A DNA stretch of 64,000 nucleotides from Brumimicrobium glaciale (lineage in GTDB: Bacteria > Bacteroidota > Bacteroidia > Flavobacteriales_D > Crocinitomicaceae): assembly GCF_004152935.1 (NCBI RefSeq), contig NZ_SETE01000003.1, positions 1 through 64,000 of the forward strand, read 5' to 3'. The notes under the pieces were generated by a model. That model worked only from the letters and a program-made list of their open reading frames with translations. It ran no database searches and was not told the origin of the DNA. A program made the position numbers and the translations under genes. Below, piece after piece: positions 15,787-55,662 of the stretch. Each line of letters opens with the position of its first letter. Within the stretch, counting starts at the first letter, position 1.

Positions 15787-16881
15787 ATGTTGACATTTTT
15801 AAAAGATTACCAATATGAGATAATTTATATTATTGTCACCATTTTCTCAGTATTTGCATTGCGTTTTTTAACCACTTTTATTCAAAAGAAAGCCTTAAAA
15901 AAAGGTGCAGAAAGATTGGGCTATGAAAGCGATGGAACTACCAGAACAGTTAGAAAGATTTTAAATACCTTGTGGTTAATTTTAGGTGCAACAGCAATTG
16001 TTTTGCTTTTTGTATCTGGTGAGGTTCATGAAAAATTATTAGCCAACTCAAAATTTATCGTTTACACTACTATTGTTGCTATTGGAACAATAGTTTTTGC
16101 CTCAACAACCAACAGATGGTTCAAATGGAAGGTTACAAAAAAGAACACCGAACATGACGATCCAACGAGTTTAAAATTCTTAAGATATATAGCAATTGGT
16201 GCTATTTATACACTCGGAGTTTTGTTAATTCTATTGGTTCTACCCGGATTTAAAGGAGTAGCACAAACTGTACTAGGAGGAGCTGGTGTGATCGCTGTAA
16301 TCGCGGGTATTGCTTCTCAAGAAGCTTTAGGGAATATTGTAAGTGGGCTTTTTATCGTATCCTTTAAACCTTTTAAAATTGGTGATGTGATAAAAATCGA
16401 AGGCGAAATGACTGGAAAAGTTATTGATATTACTCTAAGACATACGGTACTTCAAAATTTCGAAAACCGTATGATTGTCGTGCCAAATTCTGTTATTAAC
16501 AAAGAGAAATTAATCAATTATGATTCCATCGACCAAAGGGTTTGCGAAAGATTGGGATTTAATATTTCTTATGACAGTGATATTGATTTAGCAAAAAGCA
16601 TCATTCGAGATGAGTGTGAAAACCATCCATTACTCCTAGATAAAAGAACTGCCAAAGAAATTAGTGATGGGATTCCAAAAGTGAATGTAAAAGTAATTGA
16701 ATTAGCTGCTTATGCAGTAGTTATTCGCGCTTGGGCATGGACAGCAAATTCCGATAACAGCTATACTTTACGCTTCGATTTATTAGAAAGTATCAAGAAA
16801 AGATTCGATAAAGAAGGCATTGTTATTCCATTTCCTAATCAAACGATTAGTTTTAAAAATCCGTTAAAAACAGAAGAATGA
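15787..16881 (+). CDS. Small-conductance mechanosensitive channel, MscS family
   Basis: A 364-residue integral membrane protein. Four or so hydrophobic segments precede the pore helix (about residues 150-185, with GGAGVIAVIAGIASQEALGN, the glycine/alanine-rich gate typical of MscS). The MscS beta domain follows (FIVSFKPFKIGDVIKIEG, DITLRHTVLQNFENRMIVVPNS). It releases solutes during hypo-osmotic shock. The next gene overlaps it by four bases (ATGA), so they are translationally coupled. Confidence 0.92.
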   Translation: MLTFLKDYQYEIIYIIVTIFSVFALRFLTTFIQKKALKKGAERLGYESDGTTRTVRKILNTLWLILGATAIVLLFVSGEVHEKLLANSKFIVYTTIVAIGTIVFASTTNRWFKWKVTKKNTEHDDPTSLKFLRYIAIGAIYTLGVLLILLVLPGFKGVAQTVLGGAGVIAVIAGIASQEALGNIVSGLFIVSFKPFKIGDVIKIEGEMTGKVIDITLRHTVLQNFENRMIVVPNSVINKEKLINYDSIDQRVCERLGFNISYDSDIDLAKSIIRDECENHPLLLDKRTAKEISDGIPKVNVKVIELAAYAVVIRAWAWTANSDNSYTLRFDLLESIKKRFDKEGIVIPFPNQTISFKNPLKTEE

Positions 16882-17975
16882 GATTGTTTCGAATTGCTTT
16901 AATGTCATTACTATTATTGAGTTTATCTTCTTGTAAAGTAGGCCGTTTTTTCGTTTACAATTTCGCGGGAATAAAAGATTACAAAATATTTCCAAGCCGC
17001 ACAATTGAGAAAGGAGATTCTACCTTCTACTTTACTCAAGGAGTTGAGAAAAAACCAAAAACGATAAGCTATAAAGACAAAGAGTTATCATTTGAGGAAT
17101 TCCTAATTGAACAGAAAACAGTTGCATTTTTAGTGATTAAAAACGACTCCATTCTCTATGAAAATTACTTTAACAAATATGAAGAAGAAGCTATTGTTGC
17201 TTCGTTTTCTATGGCAAAATCTGTCACGTCTATTCTTATTGGAATCGCAATTGATGAAGGATTAATTCTATCAGTAAACGAACCAGTCACCAAATATATT
17301 CCAGAATTAAAAGCAAATGGATTCGACAAAGTGACCCTCAAGCATTTATTACAAATGACTTCAGGATTAGACTACAATGAAGGATATGCAAATCCTTTCG
17401 GAGATGTGGCAACGTTTTATTATGGAACAAAACTACGAAAAGAAATTCCAAAAATGAAGTTGAAATACGAACCCGAGGAAAAATTTGATTATGCCAGCGG
17501 AAGCACACAAATTTTAGGTTTAGTATTAGAAAGAGCATTAAAAGACCAATCTATTTCGAGCTATTTACAGGAAAAATTATGGATCCCCTTAGAAATGGAA
17601 TTCGATGCGAGCTGGAGCATTGACAGAAAAAAGAACGGATTAGAAAAGACTTTCTGCTGTTTAAATGCAAGAGCAAGAGACTTTGCAAAAATTGGAAGAC
17701 TATACCTGAACAAAGGAAATTGGAACGGAAAACAAATCGTTTCGGAAGAATGGGTAGCGGAATCTACTAAATATGACGTCTCCGAAGGAAGCGCAAATCA
17801 CTACCAATATCAATGGTGGATTCCCTCAGAAAATGGCGACTTCATGGCCCGAGGAATTTTAGGACAATACATTTATGTTCATCCAGAAAAAGACCTCATA
17901 ATCGTAAGATTAGGAAAAAAAGAAGGAAAAGTAGATTGGTTTAGTGTTTTGCCAAAGATTGGGAAGGCTTATTGA
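16878..17975 (+). CDS. Lipoprotein serine hydrolase, class C beta-lactamase fold
   Basis: A 365-residue protein with a lipoprotein signal (LLLSLSSC at about residue 19). The S-x-x-K nucleophile motif is SMAK in ASFSMAKSVTSILIG (about residue 115), and the Y-x-S-like motif is YAS in FDYASGSTQILG. It belongs to the beta-lactamase/penicillin-binding-protein-related hydrolases, which include esterases and D-peptidases; actual beta-lactam resistance is not implied. It overlaps the MscS gene by four bases, an operon that suggests a shared envelope-stress setting. The substrate is unknown. Confidence 0.88.
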   Translation: MRLFRIALMSLLLLSLSSCKVGRFFVYNFAGIKDYKIFPSRTIEKGDSTFYFTQGVEKKPKTISYKDKELSFEEFLIEQKTVAFLVIKNDSILYENYFNKYEEEAIVASFSMAKSVTSILIGIAIDEGLILSVNEPVTKYIPELKANGFDKVTLKHLLQMTSGLDYNEGYANPFGDVATFYYGTKLRKEIPKMKLKYEPEEKFDYASGSTQILGLVLERALKDQSISSYLQEKLWIPLEMEFDASWSIDRKKNGLEKTFCCLNARARDFAKIGRLYLNKGNWNGKQIVSEEWVAESTKYDVSEGSANHYQYQWWIPSENGDFMARGILGQYIYVHPEKDLIIVRLGKKEGKVDWFSVLPKIGKAY

Positions 17976-18081
17976 ATTACGAATATTGTAATTACGAATT
18001 ACGAATTGTTGTGGACTTAATTGCCTTCACCAAGTTCTGAACAATGCGATGCAATTGCGGTTAAACTTCCTAATATTAAAC

Positions 18082-18089
18082 TAACTTTG
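18082..18089 (+). promoter_or_regulatory. -7 element TAACTTTG
   Basis: It is a perfect TAnnTTTG match 20 bases before the PhnA-like start at 18110. Confidence 0.5.
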
Positions 18090-18109
18090 TATTTTAAAAC
18101 ACCAAAAAA

Positions 18110-18685
18110 ATGATTCAAGAGAAACTTCAAGAAAGAAGCAACAATCAATGCGAATTGTGTACTTCGACAAGCGATTTGACGGTTTACACTGTTCCACCAA
18201 GAGATACTGAAAGCGAAGAAAATTCGATCTTAATATGTGAGAATTGCAATACTCAAATTAATGATGAGAGTAAAGTAGATCCAAATCACTGGAGATGTTT
18301 AAATGACAGTATGTGGAGCGAAGTTTCAGCGGTGAAAGTTGTGGCTTGGAGAATGTTAAACCAATTGCGTGCTGAAGGTTGGCCATCTGATTTATTGGAA
18401 ATGATGTATCTTGAAGAAGAAACTTTAGCATGGGCAAAAGAAGGTGCTGCAGCTGAAGTGACAGAAGAAGCAATTATTCATAAAGACAGCTATGGAGTAG
18501 TTTTAGAAGCTGGAGATACTGTTGTTTTAATTAAAGATCTTCCAGTAAAAGGTTCTAGTTTGGTGGCCAAAAGAGGAACGGCGGTTAGGCGGATTTCACT
18601 TGATCATGAGAATGCAAATCATATTGAAGGGAAAGTTGAGGGGCAGCAAATCGTAATTTTGACCCAATTCGTAAAGAAATCCTAA
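18110..18685 (+). CDS. yjdM: PhnA/YjdM-like zinc-ribbon protein
   Basis: A 191-residue protein. An N-terminal zinc ribbon uses CELC (about residues 14-17) and CENC (about 45-48). The C-terminal ~70 residues form the PhnA/YjdM domain (DSYGVVLEAGDTVVLIKDLP, VKGSSLVAKRGTAVRRISL, then IEGKVEGQQIVILTQFVKKS). Despite the old name, a role in phosphonate degradation is not supported, and no phosphonate genes are near. The cellular function is unresolved. It has its own promoter. Confidence 0.9.
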   Translation: MIQEKLQERSNNQCELCTSTSDLTVYTVPPRDTESEENSILICENCNTQINDESKVDPNHWRCLNDSMWSEVSAVKVVAWRMLNQLRAEGWPSDLLEMMYLEEETLAWAKEGAAAEVTEEAIIHKDSYGVVLEAGDTVVLIKDLPVKGSSLVAKRGTAVRRISLDHENANHIEGKVEGQQIVILTQFVKKS

Positions 18686-18712
18686 ATTTCTAATTTAGAA
18701 ATTTGTTTTTGT

Positions 18713-18861
18713 GCTTTAATGGCACTTTCGGTTCTCCCCTTTTTATAATGGTTGAATGTAATTGAAACTGGATTAAAATTATTTATCCATACATAAGTTA
18801 AACGAACAAAAGAATAATCCAAGAACTCTGGATGATACTTTTTGTTGCGCTTTAATGGCAC
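18713..18861. repeat. Direct repeat GCTTTAATGGCAC 136 bp apart
   Basis: The same 13 bases occur at 18713-18725 and 18849-18861, each preceded by a TTTTTGT-like run. The bases between contain a short reverse-strand frame that I do not accept as a gene. It may be a duplication footprint. Confidence 0.45.
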
Positions 18862-18878
18862 GCGGGCCCACTGCAAGA

Positions 18879-19000
18879 ACTGTTACCACGAGATAAAATC
18901 ACTGTTACCACGAGATAAAATCACTGTTACCACGAGATAAAATCACTGTTACCACGAGATAAAAACTGTTACCACGAGATAAAATCTCGCGGTAACAGTT
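18879..19000. repeat. Five tandem 22-bp units ending in a palindrome
   Basis: The unit ACTGTTACCACGAGATAAAATC starts at 18879, 18901, 18923, 18945 (20 bp) and 18965. The last copy is completed by its inverted half at 18987-19000, forming a 37-bp hairpin AACTGTTACC...GGTAACAGTT (18964-19000). The whole units are head-to-tail copies of the left half of that palindrome. Related copies lie at 19103-19129 and 55578-55614. Confidence 0.85.
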
Positions 19001-19020
19001 TAGAAAAAGGATTAATAATC

Positions 19021-19080
19021 AAAAAAGAGGGATGAAAAATAATGGCGTTAAAACGCCAATATTTTTCATCCCTCTTTTTT
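19021..19080. terminator. Bidirectional terminator with a ~28-bp stem
   Basis: AAAAAAGAGGGATG (19021-19034) pairs with CATCCCTCTTTTTT (19067-19080), and the stem continues inward through GGCGTT/AACGCC with only a small loop. T runs flank both strands. It sits between the convergent genes ending at 18685 and 19170, so it can end both transcripts. Confidence 0.85.
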
Positions 19081-19102
19081 GAACGCACACCACCAAAAAT
19101 CA

Positions 19103-19129
19103 GTTACCGCGAGATTTTATCACGGTAAC
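19103..19129. repeat. Single copy of the GTTACC...GGTAAC palindrome
   Basis: GTTACCGCGA and TCACGGTAAC flank a short spacer. It is the same family as the array at 18879, on the other side of the bidirectional terminator. Confidence 0.7.
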
Positions 19130-19169
19130 ATTTCCTATTCACAAAGACCCATTAAAATAAGAGTAGAAT

Positions 19170-19553
19170 CTATTTTTTCTTAAGTAAAGAAATAGACCAA
19201 ACTGGTAAGAAACACAAAGCTGCTGTTGTCCCCAAAGCACCGCCAAAGCCCTCAAAATACGGAGAGGTAAAAAGATAAATAAAAGTAAACAGAAATCCGG
19301 CTATTCCGATTAATAAATAGGAGGAAAGAATTTTATTGGAAGCCATTCCAATAAATGCCGCACCATAGAAAATAACGGGTGCTTCTGTGGCTAACGTTAT
19401 AGGTAAATAAGGTGCGAAAACCATAACTAATAATGCAAAAACCAATGATGGCAGTGCAGAACCAACTACAATTCCCATTTTGAAATTATTATTGAGAATA
19501 AATGCAATTAATGCACCTGCTAATCCGACGATATAAAGTGAGCCTACTATCAT
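19170..19553 (-). CDS. Small membrane protein, paralogue of its upstream neighbour
   Basis: A 127-residue hydrophobic protein with about four membrane helices. Its motif FYGAAFIGMASNKILSSY matches YCGTFVGMASTSLFDEI in the upstream gene, and both share a following Y-F/T-R-G-x-G-G-x-G pattern. It overlaps that gene by four bases (ATGA), so the pair is an operon of tandem paralogues. Together they probably form one membrane complex. Neither substrate nor family is recognised. It ends just before the GTTACC repeat at 19103. Confidence 0.7.
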   Translation of the reverse strand: MIVGSLYIVGLAGALIAFILNNNFKMGIVVGSALPSLVFALLVMVFAPYLPITLATEAPVIFYGAAFIGMASNKILSSYLLIGIAGFLFTFIYLFTSPYFEGFGGALGTTAALCFLPVWSISLLKKK

Positions 19554-20253: not shown

Positions 20254-20418
20254 CTAATTACAAATAGTTAACATGCTAAAAACGAACATCAATTGATAAA
20301 AGATATTCTAATTATTTTTTTTGTAAACTTGATTAAACATATAAAAGGGTTCTATATGATTTTGTGTGGGTAGTTTTAAAATCTATGGTTTTAATTGAAG
20401 CTAAACGATTGTTAATTT

Positions 20419-20818
20419 GGTTCTACTTTTATTTAAATGGAAACTTTCTATTAAAAATTTAATTCACTTAATTTGATAAGCTCCTGTAATTTACAGTATT
20501 TATAATTTTAAGTCCCAGAGGGACGGCATATTAATAGGGATGGACGTAAGTCCATCCGACAAACGATACAAACCGAAACATAACCCCACAAAATCGACCT
20601 AATTGCATGCAATTAGGTCGATTTTGTGGGGTTATGTATTATATCTATTTGTTTTAAACCAAGGACTTACGTCCTTGGTTATTAATATGCCGTCCCGCCG
20701 GGACTAATCAATTGAAATACAGACCACCATGTGCTTACTTGTAAAAATGAAATGATAATTTTGAAAAATACTTTAAAATACAACTCGTTTAGGTTACAGT
20801 TAAATTCGCAGTAGAACC
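20419..20818. repeat. Nested multi-hairpin element, copy 1
   Basis: The ends are GGTTCTAC (20419-20426) and GTAGAACC (20811-20818). Inside, in order: hairpin GTCCC-AGA-GGGAC (20512-20524); CATATTAATA (20527-20536); hairpin GGATGGAC-GTAA-GTCCATCC (20538-20557); a perfect 60-bp palindrome centred on GCATGC (20578-20637); hairpin CCAAGGAC-TTAC-GTCCTTGG (20659-20678); TATTAATATG (20680-20689); hairpin GTCCC-GCC-GGGAC (20692-20704). Weaker inverted similarity continues out to about 20346 and 20873 (GTGTGGGTA / TACCCACA). No protein is encoded. Copy 2 is at 42792. Confidence 0.85.
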
Positions 20819-21008
20819 ATTAATTTTTCGAAAGATTAAAATTGATTACCCACAGTATTTCATATAGAGCCGTTTAAAAATTATGAAATTCCAATTCTCT
20901 GGAAAAAATAAATTTTACAAGCTAAATTTTGTAAAACCAAAAAACCTACAAAACACTTCACTTTCGTTTGGCATTCCGTAGGTTTTTAGAATATTTATCA
21001 ACTTAATA

Positions 21009-41227: not shown

Positions 41228-42583
41228 TTGGAAATTGAGTTGATTAGTTTTTTCGATATTATGGTTGGCTCTTGTTGGCTAATACTTCTGATGATTTTCT
41301 TCTGGGTACTGCGCTTGTTAAATCAAGATCAACCACATTATAAAATTTTCTATCCAGCTATGCTTTTCAAATTAGGCTTCGCAGCTATATTTGCAATTAC
41401 CTATACGCTAGTTTTGGAAGGAGGTGACACCACTGCATATTGGGCAGGTGCTGTTAAATTAAATCATTTATTCTGGGACAATCCACAGTCCTATTTCATG
41501 GAAATGATTCAGGTTCCTTCTCATGACACTGTTCGTAATTATTTCAATGAACGAACTGGATACCCTCCCTCCTGGATATATAAAGAACCCGAAAGCTTCT
41601 TTGTGAGTAAGATTATTTCATTATTCACTTTTGTGACTTTCAATAGTTATTTGGCAATGACATTAATCAGTGCTGCAATAGTTGGAATAACCTCTTGGAA
41701 GCTTTATGAATTGGTGAAAGATTTTACTTTTTGCAAACATTGGTTATTGGCTGGCGCAACCTTATTTATTCCAACAGTAGCTTTCTGGTGTTCAGGCATA
41801 TCAAAGGACACCTTCGTTTTAGCAGCATTCCAAACAATAGTTTACATCGCATTTTCTTTATTACAAAAAAAGAAAAAGTTTAATTTTAAATACTTTTTAC
41901 TCCTCTTCATTTCTATATTTTTCCTCTTCAAAATGCGTGATTTCATGTTAGTTGCAATCGGTGTTCCGCTAGCCGCTGTATTATTGGTGCGTATGTTAAA
42001 AAACATGCAAAACAATCCTTTAGTAATATGGACTTTTCGTATTGTTTTTACTGCGCTATCAATAGGGTTAACGCTAGTTTATTTGCAGTCTATGTCCGAT
42101 CAAATTGCAGAAAGTGCCTATCTTGAAGAACTAGCTGTTGTGCAACAAGATTTTGCCCAAAATGCGCTTTACACTGGTCCAAAATATGATTTAGGAATTA
42201 CCGATTATACACCTATTGGGATTCTAAGCGCTGTTCCGATTTCAGTATTGACCGCTTTTTATCGCCCATTCCTTTGGGAAGCCAGTAGTGCCTTTTTACT
42301 TCTCAGTGCTTTTGAAGGAATATTTTTAATGGCTTTAACTTACGGTTTCATATTTAGATCGGGTGGAATTAAGAAACACTTCAAGTTTATTCGAACACAA
42401 GAATTCTTGATCTTCGCAATTCTATTCTCTTTAATACTTGGGTTTTTCGCTGGATTTACTTCTGGATTATTTAATGTTCTCATCAGATTCAAAGCTCCAT
42501 TTATGTCTTTTATTATTCTCTTTTTTGCGGCTCGCCGGCCTAGAGAAATAGAAGATATCAAACAGCAAGGACAAGTACCATAG
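41228..42583 (+). CDS. Polytopic membrane protein of unknown function
   Basis: A 451-residue protein with roughly ten hydrophobic segments (WLILLMIFFWVLRLL, FKLGFAAIFAITYTLVL and others) and no signal peptide. The first start is TTG 41228; ATG 41261 is an alternative. The alternating long membrane segments with a conserved soluble loop (EGGDTTAYWAGAVKLNH) recall polysaccharide-polymerase or glycosyltransferase-type membrane proteins, but I do not recognise the family. It lies 23 bp after the dioxygenase gene. A hairpin at 42627 probably ends the transcript. Confidence 0.6.
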   Translation: MEIELISFFDIMVGSCWLILLMIFFWVLRLLNQDQPHYKIFYPAMLFKLGFAAIFAITYTLVLEGGDTTAYWAGAVKLNHLFWDNPQSYFMEMIQVPSHDTVRNYFNERTGYPPSWIYKEPESFFVSKIISLFTFVTFNSYLAMTLISAAIVGITSWKLYELVKDFTFCKHWLLAGATLFIPTVAFWCSGISKDTFVLAAFQTIVYIAFSLLQKKKKFNFKYFLLLFISIFFLFKMRDFMLVAIGVPLAAVLLVRMLKNMQNNPLVIWTFRIVFTALSIGLTLVYLQSMSDQIAESAYLEELAVVQQDFAQNALYTGPKYDLGITDYTPIGILSAVPISVLTAFYRPFLWEASSAFLLLSAFEGIFLMALTYGFIFRSGGIKKHFKFIRTQEFLIFAILFSLILGFFAGFTSGLFNVLIRFKAPFMSFIILFFAARRPREIEDIKQQGQVP

Positions 42584-42626
42584 GATTAGATGAGAATAAA
42601 ATTCTATAGTAATAAAAATAGTGGAC

Positions 42627-42680
42627 GTTAGATGTTAGACACAAGACTTTTTAATCTTTGTCTTGAGTCTAACATCTAAC
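42627..42680. terminator. Long hairpin, likely terminator
   Basis: GTTAGATGTTAGAC (42627-42640) pairs with GTCTAACATCTAAC (42667-42680), continuing inward through CAAGAC/GTCTTG. It lies 44 bases after the membrane-protein stop. Confidence 0.6.
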
Positions 42681-42791
42681 TTCTATTGTCTGATAAACGT
42701 TTTTAGAAGACATAACGAGATGCACTAATCCAGATGGCTTTTCAGGAGCGTATTTTCAACTATTTATAAACCACTTAACAATAAATTTTCT

Positions 42792-43132
42792 GGTTCTACC
42801 CTGATTTTAATGGTTAAACCATTAACCTTTCCATTTTTGAGTTCAAATAACTGCAATACATGGGTTTAATATTTTCAGTTCCAGAGGAACGACATATTAA
42901 TAGATATGAATGAAATCCATCTCTATACAAACCCACCGAAATCGGTATAATTGCATGCAATTATACCGATTTCGGTGGGTTTGTTTTTTGTTTATTGATA
43001 ACCAAGTACACTAGTGTACTTGGCTATTAATATGTCGCTCCTCTGGAGCTAGTTATTTAAGGAATGAATAATTATTGATAAATATTTTAGAATCCATATT
43101 GTATGAGTTCCCATTAAAATAGTGGTAGAACC
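42792..43132. repeat. Nested multi-hairpin element, copy 2
   Basis: It has the same layout as 20419-20818 with different stem sequences. GGTTCTAC (42792-42799) and GTAGAACC (43125-43132) are the ends. Between them: hairpin GTTCC-AGA-GGAAC (42878-42890); CATATTAATA (42893-42902); a degenerate region in place of the second hairpin; a perfect 58-bp palindrome centred on GCATGC (42927-42984); palindrome CCAAGTACACTAGTGTACTT (43002-43023); TATTAATATG (43025-43034); hairpin GCTCC-TCT-GGAGC (43037-43049). The right end lies 8 bases from the porG stop codon. Confidence 0.85.
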
Positions 43133-43139
43133 AATCTTC

Positions 43140-43976
43140 TTAACGATAAAAACAGATATCTGGATTTCCTAAAGAGAAAGTAAACATTATTCCAAACATA
43201 GAATACCAGTCTTTCGTCTCCGCATTTCCACGACTTCCTGTCATTTGAATTTCAGATGACGATCTATCAGATAAATTAGCGGCAATATTCCCATTTTGTT
43301 GGGCTAGCTCTGCTGCATTTAAATAATCTCCTTTTCCAACATCATCCAAATAATCTGTAAATGTTTTTCGGATTCCATATTCTAAAGAAACAGCAGCTCT
43401 TTTACCTAAATTAACTTTAAATCCTATTCCAAATGGAATAACTAATTGCGTTAAAGGATATGCATTTTCACCTGTAAGTTCACTGTTTTGACCTTCTGTT
43501 CCGATGTTTTGCAAACTCACCATTTCCCCTTTATAATCTGTCTGTGGATCCATTTTAAAAACCCCAATATCAATAAACATATAAGGTGTGAAGAAATATT
43601 CTTTATTCCCTAATTTATAATTTACATAATTGAATTCTAATCCTCCAGCGACTTCAAAAATTGAAGATTCAAATGAAAGATTTCTCGCTATCTGATCTGC
43701 TTTTCCTGATTCTGAGTCATAGCCCTCAATGGTTCCATAGCGAAGTGTTCCACGCAATGCTAATCTAGAATTAACATGAAATCTATAAATAAGTCCAAAC
43801 GATAAATTTGTATTATTGAAATGTTCGTACTTGTTCAAATCTCCAATATAATAACTTCCACCAACCATAAAGCCCAGTTCAGAGCGTGATCGAAAATTTT
43901 CGATTTGCGCATTAACAATGCTAGAGGTTAAAATAACCAATAAACTAATCAGTACTATTTTGAAAATGAATTTCAT
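43140..43976 (-). CDS. porG: T9SS outer-membrane component PorG (DUF6089)
   Basis: ATG 43976 is preferred to an upstream TTG. About 278 residues: signal peptide (to about SIVNAQ) and a strand-rich barrel beginning RSRSELGFMVGGSYYIGDLN, with RYGTIEGYDSESGK and a conserved C-terminal TKDWYSMFGIMFTFSLGN. This is the DUF6089 family, to which the T9SS protein PorG belongs. PorG contacts the PorK/PorN ring at the outer membrane. Its position next to nadK and a CBS gene matches many Bacteroidota. The hairpin element lies immediately downstream. Confidence 0.8.
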   Translation of the reverse strand: MKFIFKIVLISLLVILTSSIVNAQIENFRSRSELGFMVGGSYYIGDLNKYEHFNNTNLSFGLIYRFHVNSRLALRGTLRYGTIEGYDSESGKADQIARNLSFESSIFEVAGGLEFNYVNYKLGNKEYFFTPYMFIDIGVFKMDPQTDYKGEMVSLQNIGTEGQNSELTGENAYPLTQLVIPFGIGFKVNLGKRAAVSLEYGIRKTFTDYLDDVGKGDYLNAAELAQQNGNIAANLSDRSSSEIQMTGSRGNAETKDWYSMFGIMFTFSLGNPDICFYR

Positions 43977-44149
43977 TCGGAACAACTTAACGACAAAATT
44001 AGATAATTATTGTTGAAAATCTATTAATAGTTGAAACGGCGCGTAATTTTATACTTAATTGTAAATACAGACTTAATTATAAAATGAAAATAAGGACAGT
44101 AACATTAATTACCTTATTCGATTTTTTGGATCCAATTTAGACATTTACT

Positions 44150-55577: not shown

Positions 55578-55614
55578 AACTGTTACCACGAGATAAATCC
55601 TCGCAGTAACAGTT
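55578..55614. repeat. Dispersed copy of the AACTGTTACC palindrome
   Basis: AACTGTTACCACGAG and CTCGCAGTAACAGTT flank ATAAATC, giving a 37-bp imperfect palindrome of the same length as the one ending the array at 18964-19000. Confidence 0.8.
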
Positions 55615-55662
55615 AAGGAATAGGGTTAAAAGTCAAAAACCAATGGTAGAAACTGATTCAAA

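Follow-up and report, generated by a model that had tools for sequence, protein, structure and literature searches.

The feature at positions 42792-43132 of the window, the 64,000-nucleotide stretch of the Brumimicrobium glaciale genome analysed here, is a small, recently jumping transposon without a gene (a MITE), and our preferred reading, to which we assign a probability of about 0.77, is that it harbors a second, nested mobile system and that the arms of its long palindrome are kept matched by template switching. The outer layer would be the product of a DDE transposase, which leaves terminal inverted repeats of the kind seen here, starting with GGTTCTA, and 8-bp target duplications; the inner layer would be a pair of inverted REP-like hairpins, each followed inward by GACATATTAATAG, that correspond to the end structures of an HUH/Y1 transposase of TnpA subclass 1.2, with a palindrome standing in the place of the transposase gene; and replication through this long palindrome would switch template and copy one arm onto the other. 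The reading is supported by the terminal repeats and duplications, the absence of the element from this site in congeners, the existence of an autonomous IS4 relative, the association of TnpA genes with such hairpins and the co-change of the palindrome arms.

The element is 341 bp long, and both of its edges are exact terminal repeats (GGTTCTACC... on the left, ...GGTAGAACC on the right), at the position given for it in the original prediction. Alignment of the copies places the 22-bp terminal inverted repeats at 42792-42813 (plus strand, GGTTCTACCCTGATTTTAATGG) and 43111-43132 (minus strand), and these are bordered by an 8-bp target-site duplication, AATTTTCT at 42784-42791 and AATCTTCT at 43133-43140 (neither assigned a strand), that agrees at seven of eight positions; its right copy ends on the final nucleotide of the porG stop codon. 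No open reading frame of at least 80 amino acids is present within 42792-43132. A BLAST search of the same genome recovered four other near-identical complete copies, together with one truncated by a contig end (96-100% identity), and alignment shows that the window-type copies have their ends in common and lie in unrelated flanks. The four other complete copies are 375 bp in length, with the 34 bp missing from the window copy corresponding to a place where the longer copies repeat TTTCCATTT. Two of the five complete window-type copies have a perfect target duplication; in the other three the two sides agree at 7/8 positions (the window copy), 6/8 (L071) and 2/8 (L072).

Two inverted REP-like hairpins, each with its GACATATTAATAG linker, enclose the palindrome. 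On the left are the hairpin GTTCC-AGA-GGAAC (42878-42890, plus strand), a unit repeated around a TnpA gene on contig C4 (see below), its inward-pointing linker (42891-42903, plus strand), and a degraded second hairpin (about 42904-42922, plus strand) that is intact as GGATGGACGTAAGTCCATCC in copy 1, a related element elsewhere in the window. A 58-bp perfect palindrome follows at 42927-42984 (no strand), without a mismatch and with the core AATTGCATGCAATT. On the right, all on the minus strand, are the intact second hairpin CCAAGTACACTAGTGTACTTGG (43002-43023), the linker (43024-43036) and the REP-like hairpin (43037-43049), which reads GCTCC-AGA-GGAGC on its own strand and GCTCC-TCT-GGAGC on the plus strand. 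The original prediction had noted both the AATTGCATGCAATT core and that pairing is broken in the second hairpin alone, and this is what we see, with the left one degraded and the right one perfect. Folded as single-stranded DNA the element reaches -79.9 kcal/mol, against a mean of -25.65 for shuffled sequences (z -14.9), and none of 100 shuffles equalled it.

Copy 1 is a 524-bp element at 20348-20871 (plus strand) and a member of a sister family with terminal repeats GGTTCTATATGA...; its ends lie further out, at GGTTCTATATGATTTTGTGTGGGTA and TACCCACAGTATTTCATATAGAGCC, and its own target duplication is unrecognisable (4/8). It contains a left REP-like and second hairpin (20511-20557, minus strand) that matches the Rfam family RF01687, Acido-Lenti-1, at 31.5 bits, below the gathering score of 37, then a 60-bp perfect palindrome (20578-20637, no strand), and a right REP-like and second hairpin (20659-20705, plus strand) that is an RF01687 match at 41.3 bits. 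Its palindrome differs from that of the window copy in the manner described in the original prediction, and so do its hairpin stems, which are of GTCCC type in place of GTTCC and GCTCC; this stem change is nonetheless a difference between subfamilies. Not one two-sided change is present in the REP stems of 25 copies of the copy-1 family.

A pattern search of the genome for copy-1-type ends identified 60 at up to two mismatches and none in a reversed control, and both ends could be located for 28 of 32 candidate members of the sister family, including copy 1. These 28 and the five complete window-type copies constitute a set of 33 elements. Left out of it are the four candidates for which one or both ends were missing, namely L166 (the same place as L281), L171, L182 and L184, and also the window-type copy truncated by the contig end. 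Target duplications match at 7/8 or better in 26 of the 33 and perfectly in 18, compared with a mean of 1.1 and a maximum of 6 for shuffled pairs. A 2010-bp element at C5:130974-132983 has the same terminal repeats as the sister family and a perfect 8-bp duplication, and encodes an intact 433-residue DDE transposase (Pfam PF01609; NCBIfam IS4, 159.8 bits), the sole genomic copy found at E values up to 1e-5. The left part of this element runs from the terminal repeat through a REP hairpin, a second hairpin and the first bases of a palindrome arm into its cargo. This single intact IS4-family element is the likely mover of the sister family, and the shared ends, the target duplications and this autonomous member together identify the outer layer as a MITE family. 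Because the terminal repeats of the window subfamily agree with those of the autonomous element only over their first seven bases, GGTTCTA, the comparison does not fix the mover of that subfamily, which may, judging from this short motif, also be of IS4 type. The autonomous element additionally has a 62-residue MazE-antitoxin-like open reading frame upstream of the transposase on the opposite strand (L280:437-625). Two other candidates were discarded: IS1595 as the outer transposase had no match in the genome, where IS4 was found instead, and a supposed autonomous copy within the window at 16236-19170 had its left site inside a gene, a chance match.

The window element thus resembles MITEs of IS4-family insertion sequences in having terminal inverted repeats, 8-bp target duplications and no gene, and differs from them in its payload of inverted REP hairpins and a long palindrome, although other payloads, as judged by eye from alignments and prints of the elements, also occur between either of the same two types of ends. 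With window-type ends, L286 has no strong palindrome, L288 has a different, imperfect one, and L287 and L289 carry a second kind of palindrome; with copy-1-type ends, L281 has both payloads and L282 consists of the left REP half and the second palindrome. This second kind of palindrome (in L282, L287, L289 and in L281, where 42 of 45 positions are self-complementary) varies between copies and matches almost fully within each. Two further elements have copy-1-type ends: L283 (C2:351064-351827), whose hairpins resemble the ones surrounding L077, the C3 TnpA gene, and occupy a different position, and L284 (C3:128474-128820), which has a perfect 8-bp duplication and lacks the whole REP-palindrome core, representing either a deletion or an unfilled state. 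This variety fits with the entry of REP pairs and other palindromes into such MITEs on more than one occasion. Short elements in the congener G003 (L338 and L339) have a single palindrome arm directly after the terminal repeat, with GATTTTGTG common to this arm and the element's left end; L338 and L339 may be deletion products, or the palindrome may have arisen when two ends became joined in head-to-head orientation.

The REP hairpins and the same linker also surround a Y1 transposase gene, in an array at about 283.7-286.0 kb of contig C4. The array contains 15 perfect strict-stem hairpins of GTTCC or GCTCC type, the two types seen in the window element, all in one direction (direct, not inverted), and the gene at C4:284330-284779 is probably the cognate gene of the window hairpins. 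A protein search of PDB sequences gave eight matches, to IS200/IS605-type transposases such as ISHp608 (PDB entry 2xm3 is ISDra2), a point of difference from the RAYT (TnpA_REP) systems. The C4 protein has the motifs DHVH, WQ and YIKNQEIHH and thereby carries the signature DH[IV]H, WQ, Y---Q--HH described for TnpA subclass 1.2, which is likewise found in Bacteroidetes (Quentin et al. 2018, PMC6006769).

A contig scan with our four own-genome proteins yielded 461 confirmed loci, the best 80 of which, a non-random sample of close relatives of the C4 protein, were analysed; 73 of them carry Y[IV]..Q..HH and all 80 an HUH motif. GC-rich hairpins of at least 5 bp have a density of 10.1 per kb within 250 bp of TnpA, as against 0.85-1.02 per kb beyond 750 bp. 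A hairpin of the form NNYCC-loop-GGRNN, a pattern picked only once the data had been inspected, occurs no more than 400 bp away on at least one side at 72 of 73 TnpA loci (seven of the 80 lack full 400-bp flanks and were dropped) compared with 10 of 129 displaced control windows, and on both sides at 52 of 73 compared with none of 129. Where hairpin direction is defined, the two sides are inverted relative to each other (53 of 57 hairpins upstream share one orientation, 55 of 62 downstream the opposite one), and the linker GA(C/A)ATATTnnTA lies inward of the hairpins on both sides of the TnpA genes. This inverted layout is shared by the window element, in which the palindrome stands in place of the gene; its hairpins may be sites that TnpA cuts and the hairpin pair a unit that TnpA mobilizes. 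Of the four genes for TnpA subclass 1.2 in this genome, two lack a strict-pattern hairpin within 400 bp, although GCCAC-AGA-GTGGC hairpins can be seen flanking one of these two, L077.

These associations differ from the published account of subclass 1.2, for which the table gives REPs as absent and the text describes members as generally without typical terminal IS200 structures (PMC6006769). The hairpins resemble GTAG-type REPs and REPINs with their RAYT (TnpA_REP) genes in being short and inverted, in having many genomic copies and in flanking a Y1 HUH gene; they differ in that no GTAG or GTGG is present at the hairpin foot, the window hairpins instead having GACATATTAATAG beside the stem, such that on the strand where the tag precedes the hairpin on its 5' side the sequence is approximately AATATKTC, the reverse complement of the linker. 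The CGTC-tagged REPs of Di Nocera et al. (2013, PMC3733652) are described as having an unpaired CGTC, an 8-9 bp stem, a loop of 4-5 bases and mostly a CCA tail, as occurring mostly head-to-head, in Bacteroidetes among others, and sometimes within longer palindromes, and as having yielded no IS200-type gene flanked by CGTC units in that report's account. The hairpins described here are likewise found in Bacteroidetes in head-to-head pairs, sometimes together with longer palindromes, and TGTC, one of the tag variants in that description, is present beside the window stem; their core stem is nevertheless 5 bp with loops mostly of 3-4 bases (three in the window copy, which has no CCA tail), and we therefore do not use the name CGTC REP for them. 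Among the passages and titles consulted in the open-licence literature, we found no link of either subclass 1.2 or Acido-Lenti-1 to REPs.

The Acido-Lenti-1 family (Weinberg et al. 2010, PMC2864571) is catalogued among small RNA genes, and a Tannerella study suggests that it may regulate nearby protease genes (PMC13298647), whereas here it is one half of a transposon-borne pair: the right half of copy 1 exceeds the gathering score, and elsewhere RF01687 matches adjoin a transposase gene. In the window copy the matches score 26.3 bits at 43002-43050, spanning exactly the second hairpin, linker and REP hairpin of the right half, and 12.7 bits at 42878-42899, both short of gathering, in a permissive covariance-model search in which microRNA models also match the palindrome weakly. 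The genome as a whole has at least 55 RF01687 matches at E values up to 0.1, with 150 of 335 candidates scored. Among 28 genomes reached by way of their TnpA loci, 11 have matches at E values up to 0.001, five of them over the cut-off, and three of nine regions chosen there for their RF01687 matches have a TnpA gene between inverted matches (L293, L296 and L297; in the latter two, one of the two matches is below gathering, at 36.0 and 34.4 bits). In a sample of the phylum, 35 of 395 genomes have matches at E values up to 1e-6, and at six of 29 new loci from this sample the match and a TnpA subclass 1.2 gene are separated by 32 to 330 bp (L318 coincides with L293, and L333 with L308). Four inverted RF01687 pairs chosen for their gene-size spacing (L331, L332, L333 and L337) all hold a TnpA gene; three other clusters of matches have none.

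Altogether, RF01687 matches lie beside TnpA subclass 1.2 genes at 11 distinct loci in 10 genomes. An inverted pair surrounds the gene at seven of the 11, with both matches over gathering at five, and the REP hairpin is outermost, as in the window, at five of the seven, while L333 and L337 are turned the other way; L315, L321, L328 and L330 have gathering-level matches on one side only. The idea of RF01687 as a general mark of TnpA loci is, for all that, unsupported, as no gathering-level match was present at any of 18 tested directly (17 fetched from the 80, and the array in this genome). Because these 18 lack such matches and the window copy is itself sub-threshold, we conclude that RF01687 describes the version of the end that has a second hairpin and not all such ends. 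At L293:5065-5537 the TnpA subclass 1.2 gene is split into two frames and flanked by three RF01687 matches.

The matching of the palindrome arms can be followed across copies. Across 24 copies of the copy-1 family, the arms contain 32 cells that differ from the majority state, 21 of them two-sided and 11 one-sided, and of the variant alleles seven are always two-sided and ten always one-sided; these counts leave out the diverged copies L182, L184 and L195, L179 with its arm deletion, and three positions of L162. Four two-sided variants are private to a single copy, three recovered by filter (L173, L187 and L163) and one by hand (L166, which the filter missed owing to the damaged arm of L162), compared with nine private one-sided variants. 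When the arms are shuffled among copies the same filter returns a mean of 0.16 private two-sided changes and a maximum of two in 2000 shuffles, against the three observed, so that the arms change together within copies more often than chance predicts. The five complete window-type copies have two variable arm sites, each present in symmetric and one-sided states. At one site the window copy and L072 have T-A, L073 and L074 have T-G, and L071 has C-G; at the other, L074 has C-A, L073 has T-A and the remaining three copies have C-G. These look like successive steps. The short hairpins behave differently. In 25 copies (L182, L184 and L195 left out) neither REP stem has a two-sided change, and of the 125 cells in each stem 7 and 14 are broken; one second hairpin has a single two-sided site, in two copies. 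Long palindromes, and not short hairpins, appear to undergo correction.

The original prediction had offered two explanations for the preserved pairing, selection for a structure and correction of one arm by the other. Because the arms change together through one-sided intermediates while the short hairpins break uncompensated, arm-to-arm correction is favored over selection on an RNA; the co-change exceeds that of shuffled arms, and structure selection is not needed to account for it. Most likely, then, the arms are matched because the cell copies one onto the other, and not because a nearby gene needs them to match. Template switching would be a suitable process: single events that create or restore matched hairpin arms have been described in RNA genes (Monttinen and Loytynoja 2022, PMC8794818), and the same kind of event is proposed here for the palindrome of a transposon. 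Selection for a DNA cruciform or hairpin needed in transposition, acting through compensatory mutation, could likewise favor matched arms, and it would explain why arms and stems vary less than unpaired columns, the fraction of minority cells being 0.036 for the palindrome and between 0.013 and 0.060 for the four hairpins, against 0.083 in unpaired columns. The difference between 0.036 and 0.083 leaves room for some constraint on the arms; still, the copies with two-sided changes differ by only 0-4%, such that two independent matching mutations are unlikely, and the short hairpins, the expected targets of a protein, have almost no two-sided changes, and as the explanation for the matching we consider this selection unlikely. 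Inheritance offers another route to symmetry, in which whole elements are copied from different, symmetric masters and one-sided variants result from recombination between copies. The commonest two-sided variant, present in 12 of 24 copies, was probably inherited; we nevertheless rate this route as quite improbable overall, given that four two-sided variants are each private to one copy and that a source for the first symmetric double change would still be needed.

Far less probable, in our estimation, is that the element is a structured RNA or the 3' end of the porG transcript, with its paired changes reflecting selection on the RNA fold. The neighboring porG gene (43140-43985, minus strand; NCBIfam T9SS_PorG, 171.5 bits) has its stop codon at 43140-43142, outside the element and adjoining its end, which had led to the proposal that the element serves as a 3' structure for it, and the stability of the fold relative to shuffles would suit such a role. 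A terminator scan also flags the palindrome on both strands, with 7 sites compared with 0.5 in shuffles, but the strong T-run (TTTGTTTTTT) is on the plus strand and suits the upstream gene, with a weak tail (TTTGTATAGA) on the porG strand. Copies of the element are moreover located at unrelated loci, and the REP stems of the sister family break without compensation. Comparison of the locus with relatives speaks against it. All nine congeners compared gave matches to the 1.3 kb surrounding the element, and in G001, G003, G008 and G009 BLAST aligned both neighboring genes, the two matches being 26 to 92 bp apart; in none of the nine is there such a hairpin pair or palindrome in the 82 to 135 bp beyond the porG match, and neither the palindrome core nor the REP hairpin pattern occurs anywhere in their porG loci of 2.6-3.5 kb. 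Because nine congeners have porG without the element beside it, it is not a conserved porG 3' structure; it is an insertion with a 7/8 target duplication. A search of 120 genomes of the family, with at most six candidates scored in each, gave matches in this genome, G003, G009, G002 and G057 and no recognizable orthologous copies in sister species, and three places examined in G003 have only short or half elements.

The C4 array and its relatives provide a candidate cognate hairpin and linker for a Y1 transposase subclass described without REPs, and offer a transposon reading of the Rfam 'sRNA' family RF01687. Judging from the many MITE copies, palindrome arms can apparently covary strictly in the absence of any selection on an RNA fold, which advises caution in calling structured RNAs from covariation in repeats. 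More tentatively, and with somewhat less than even confidence, we suggest a general picture in which subclass 1.2 serves a REP class hitherto lacking an assigned transposase, Acido-Lenti-1 is primarily the single-stranded DNA end of these elements and not an RNA, REP pairs in this lineage insert into IS4-type MITEs and are afterwards carried by the second transposase, that of the MITE, as a nested element with two engines, and replication of single-stranded DNA hairpins continually makes and perfects the palindrome between the pair.

Other repeats are present in the window. A second repeat family, at about 42573-42783, directly precedes the element on the side of the upstream gene and is present in many copies both in this genome and in G009. 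Another repeat, at 18876-19170, is composed of tandem ACTGTTACC hairpins and a 64-bp near-perfect palindrome (19019-19082); its right end resembles a GGTTCTAC terminal repeat, its left end was not found, and a related hairpin is located at 55578-55639. On the minus strand at 1264-1459 there is a match to a Group II intron domain (RF02001, 86.5 bits).
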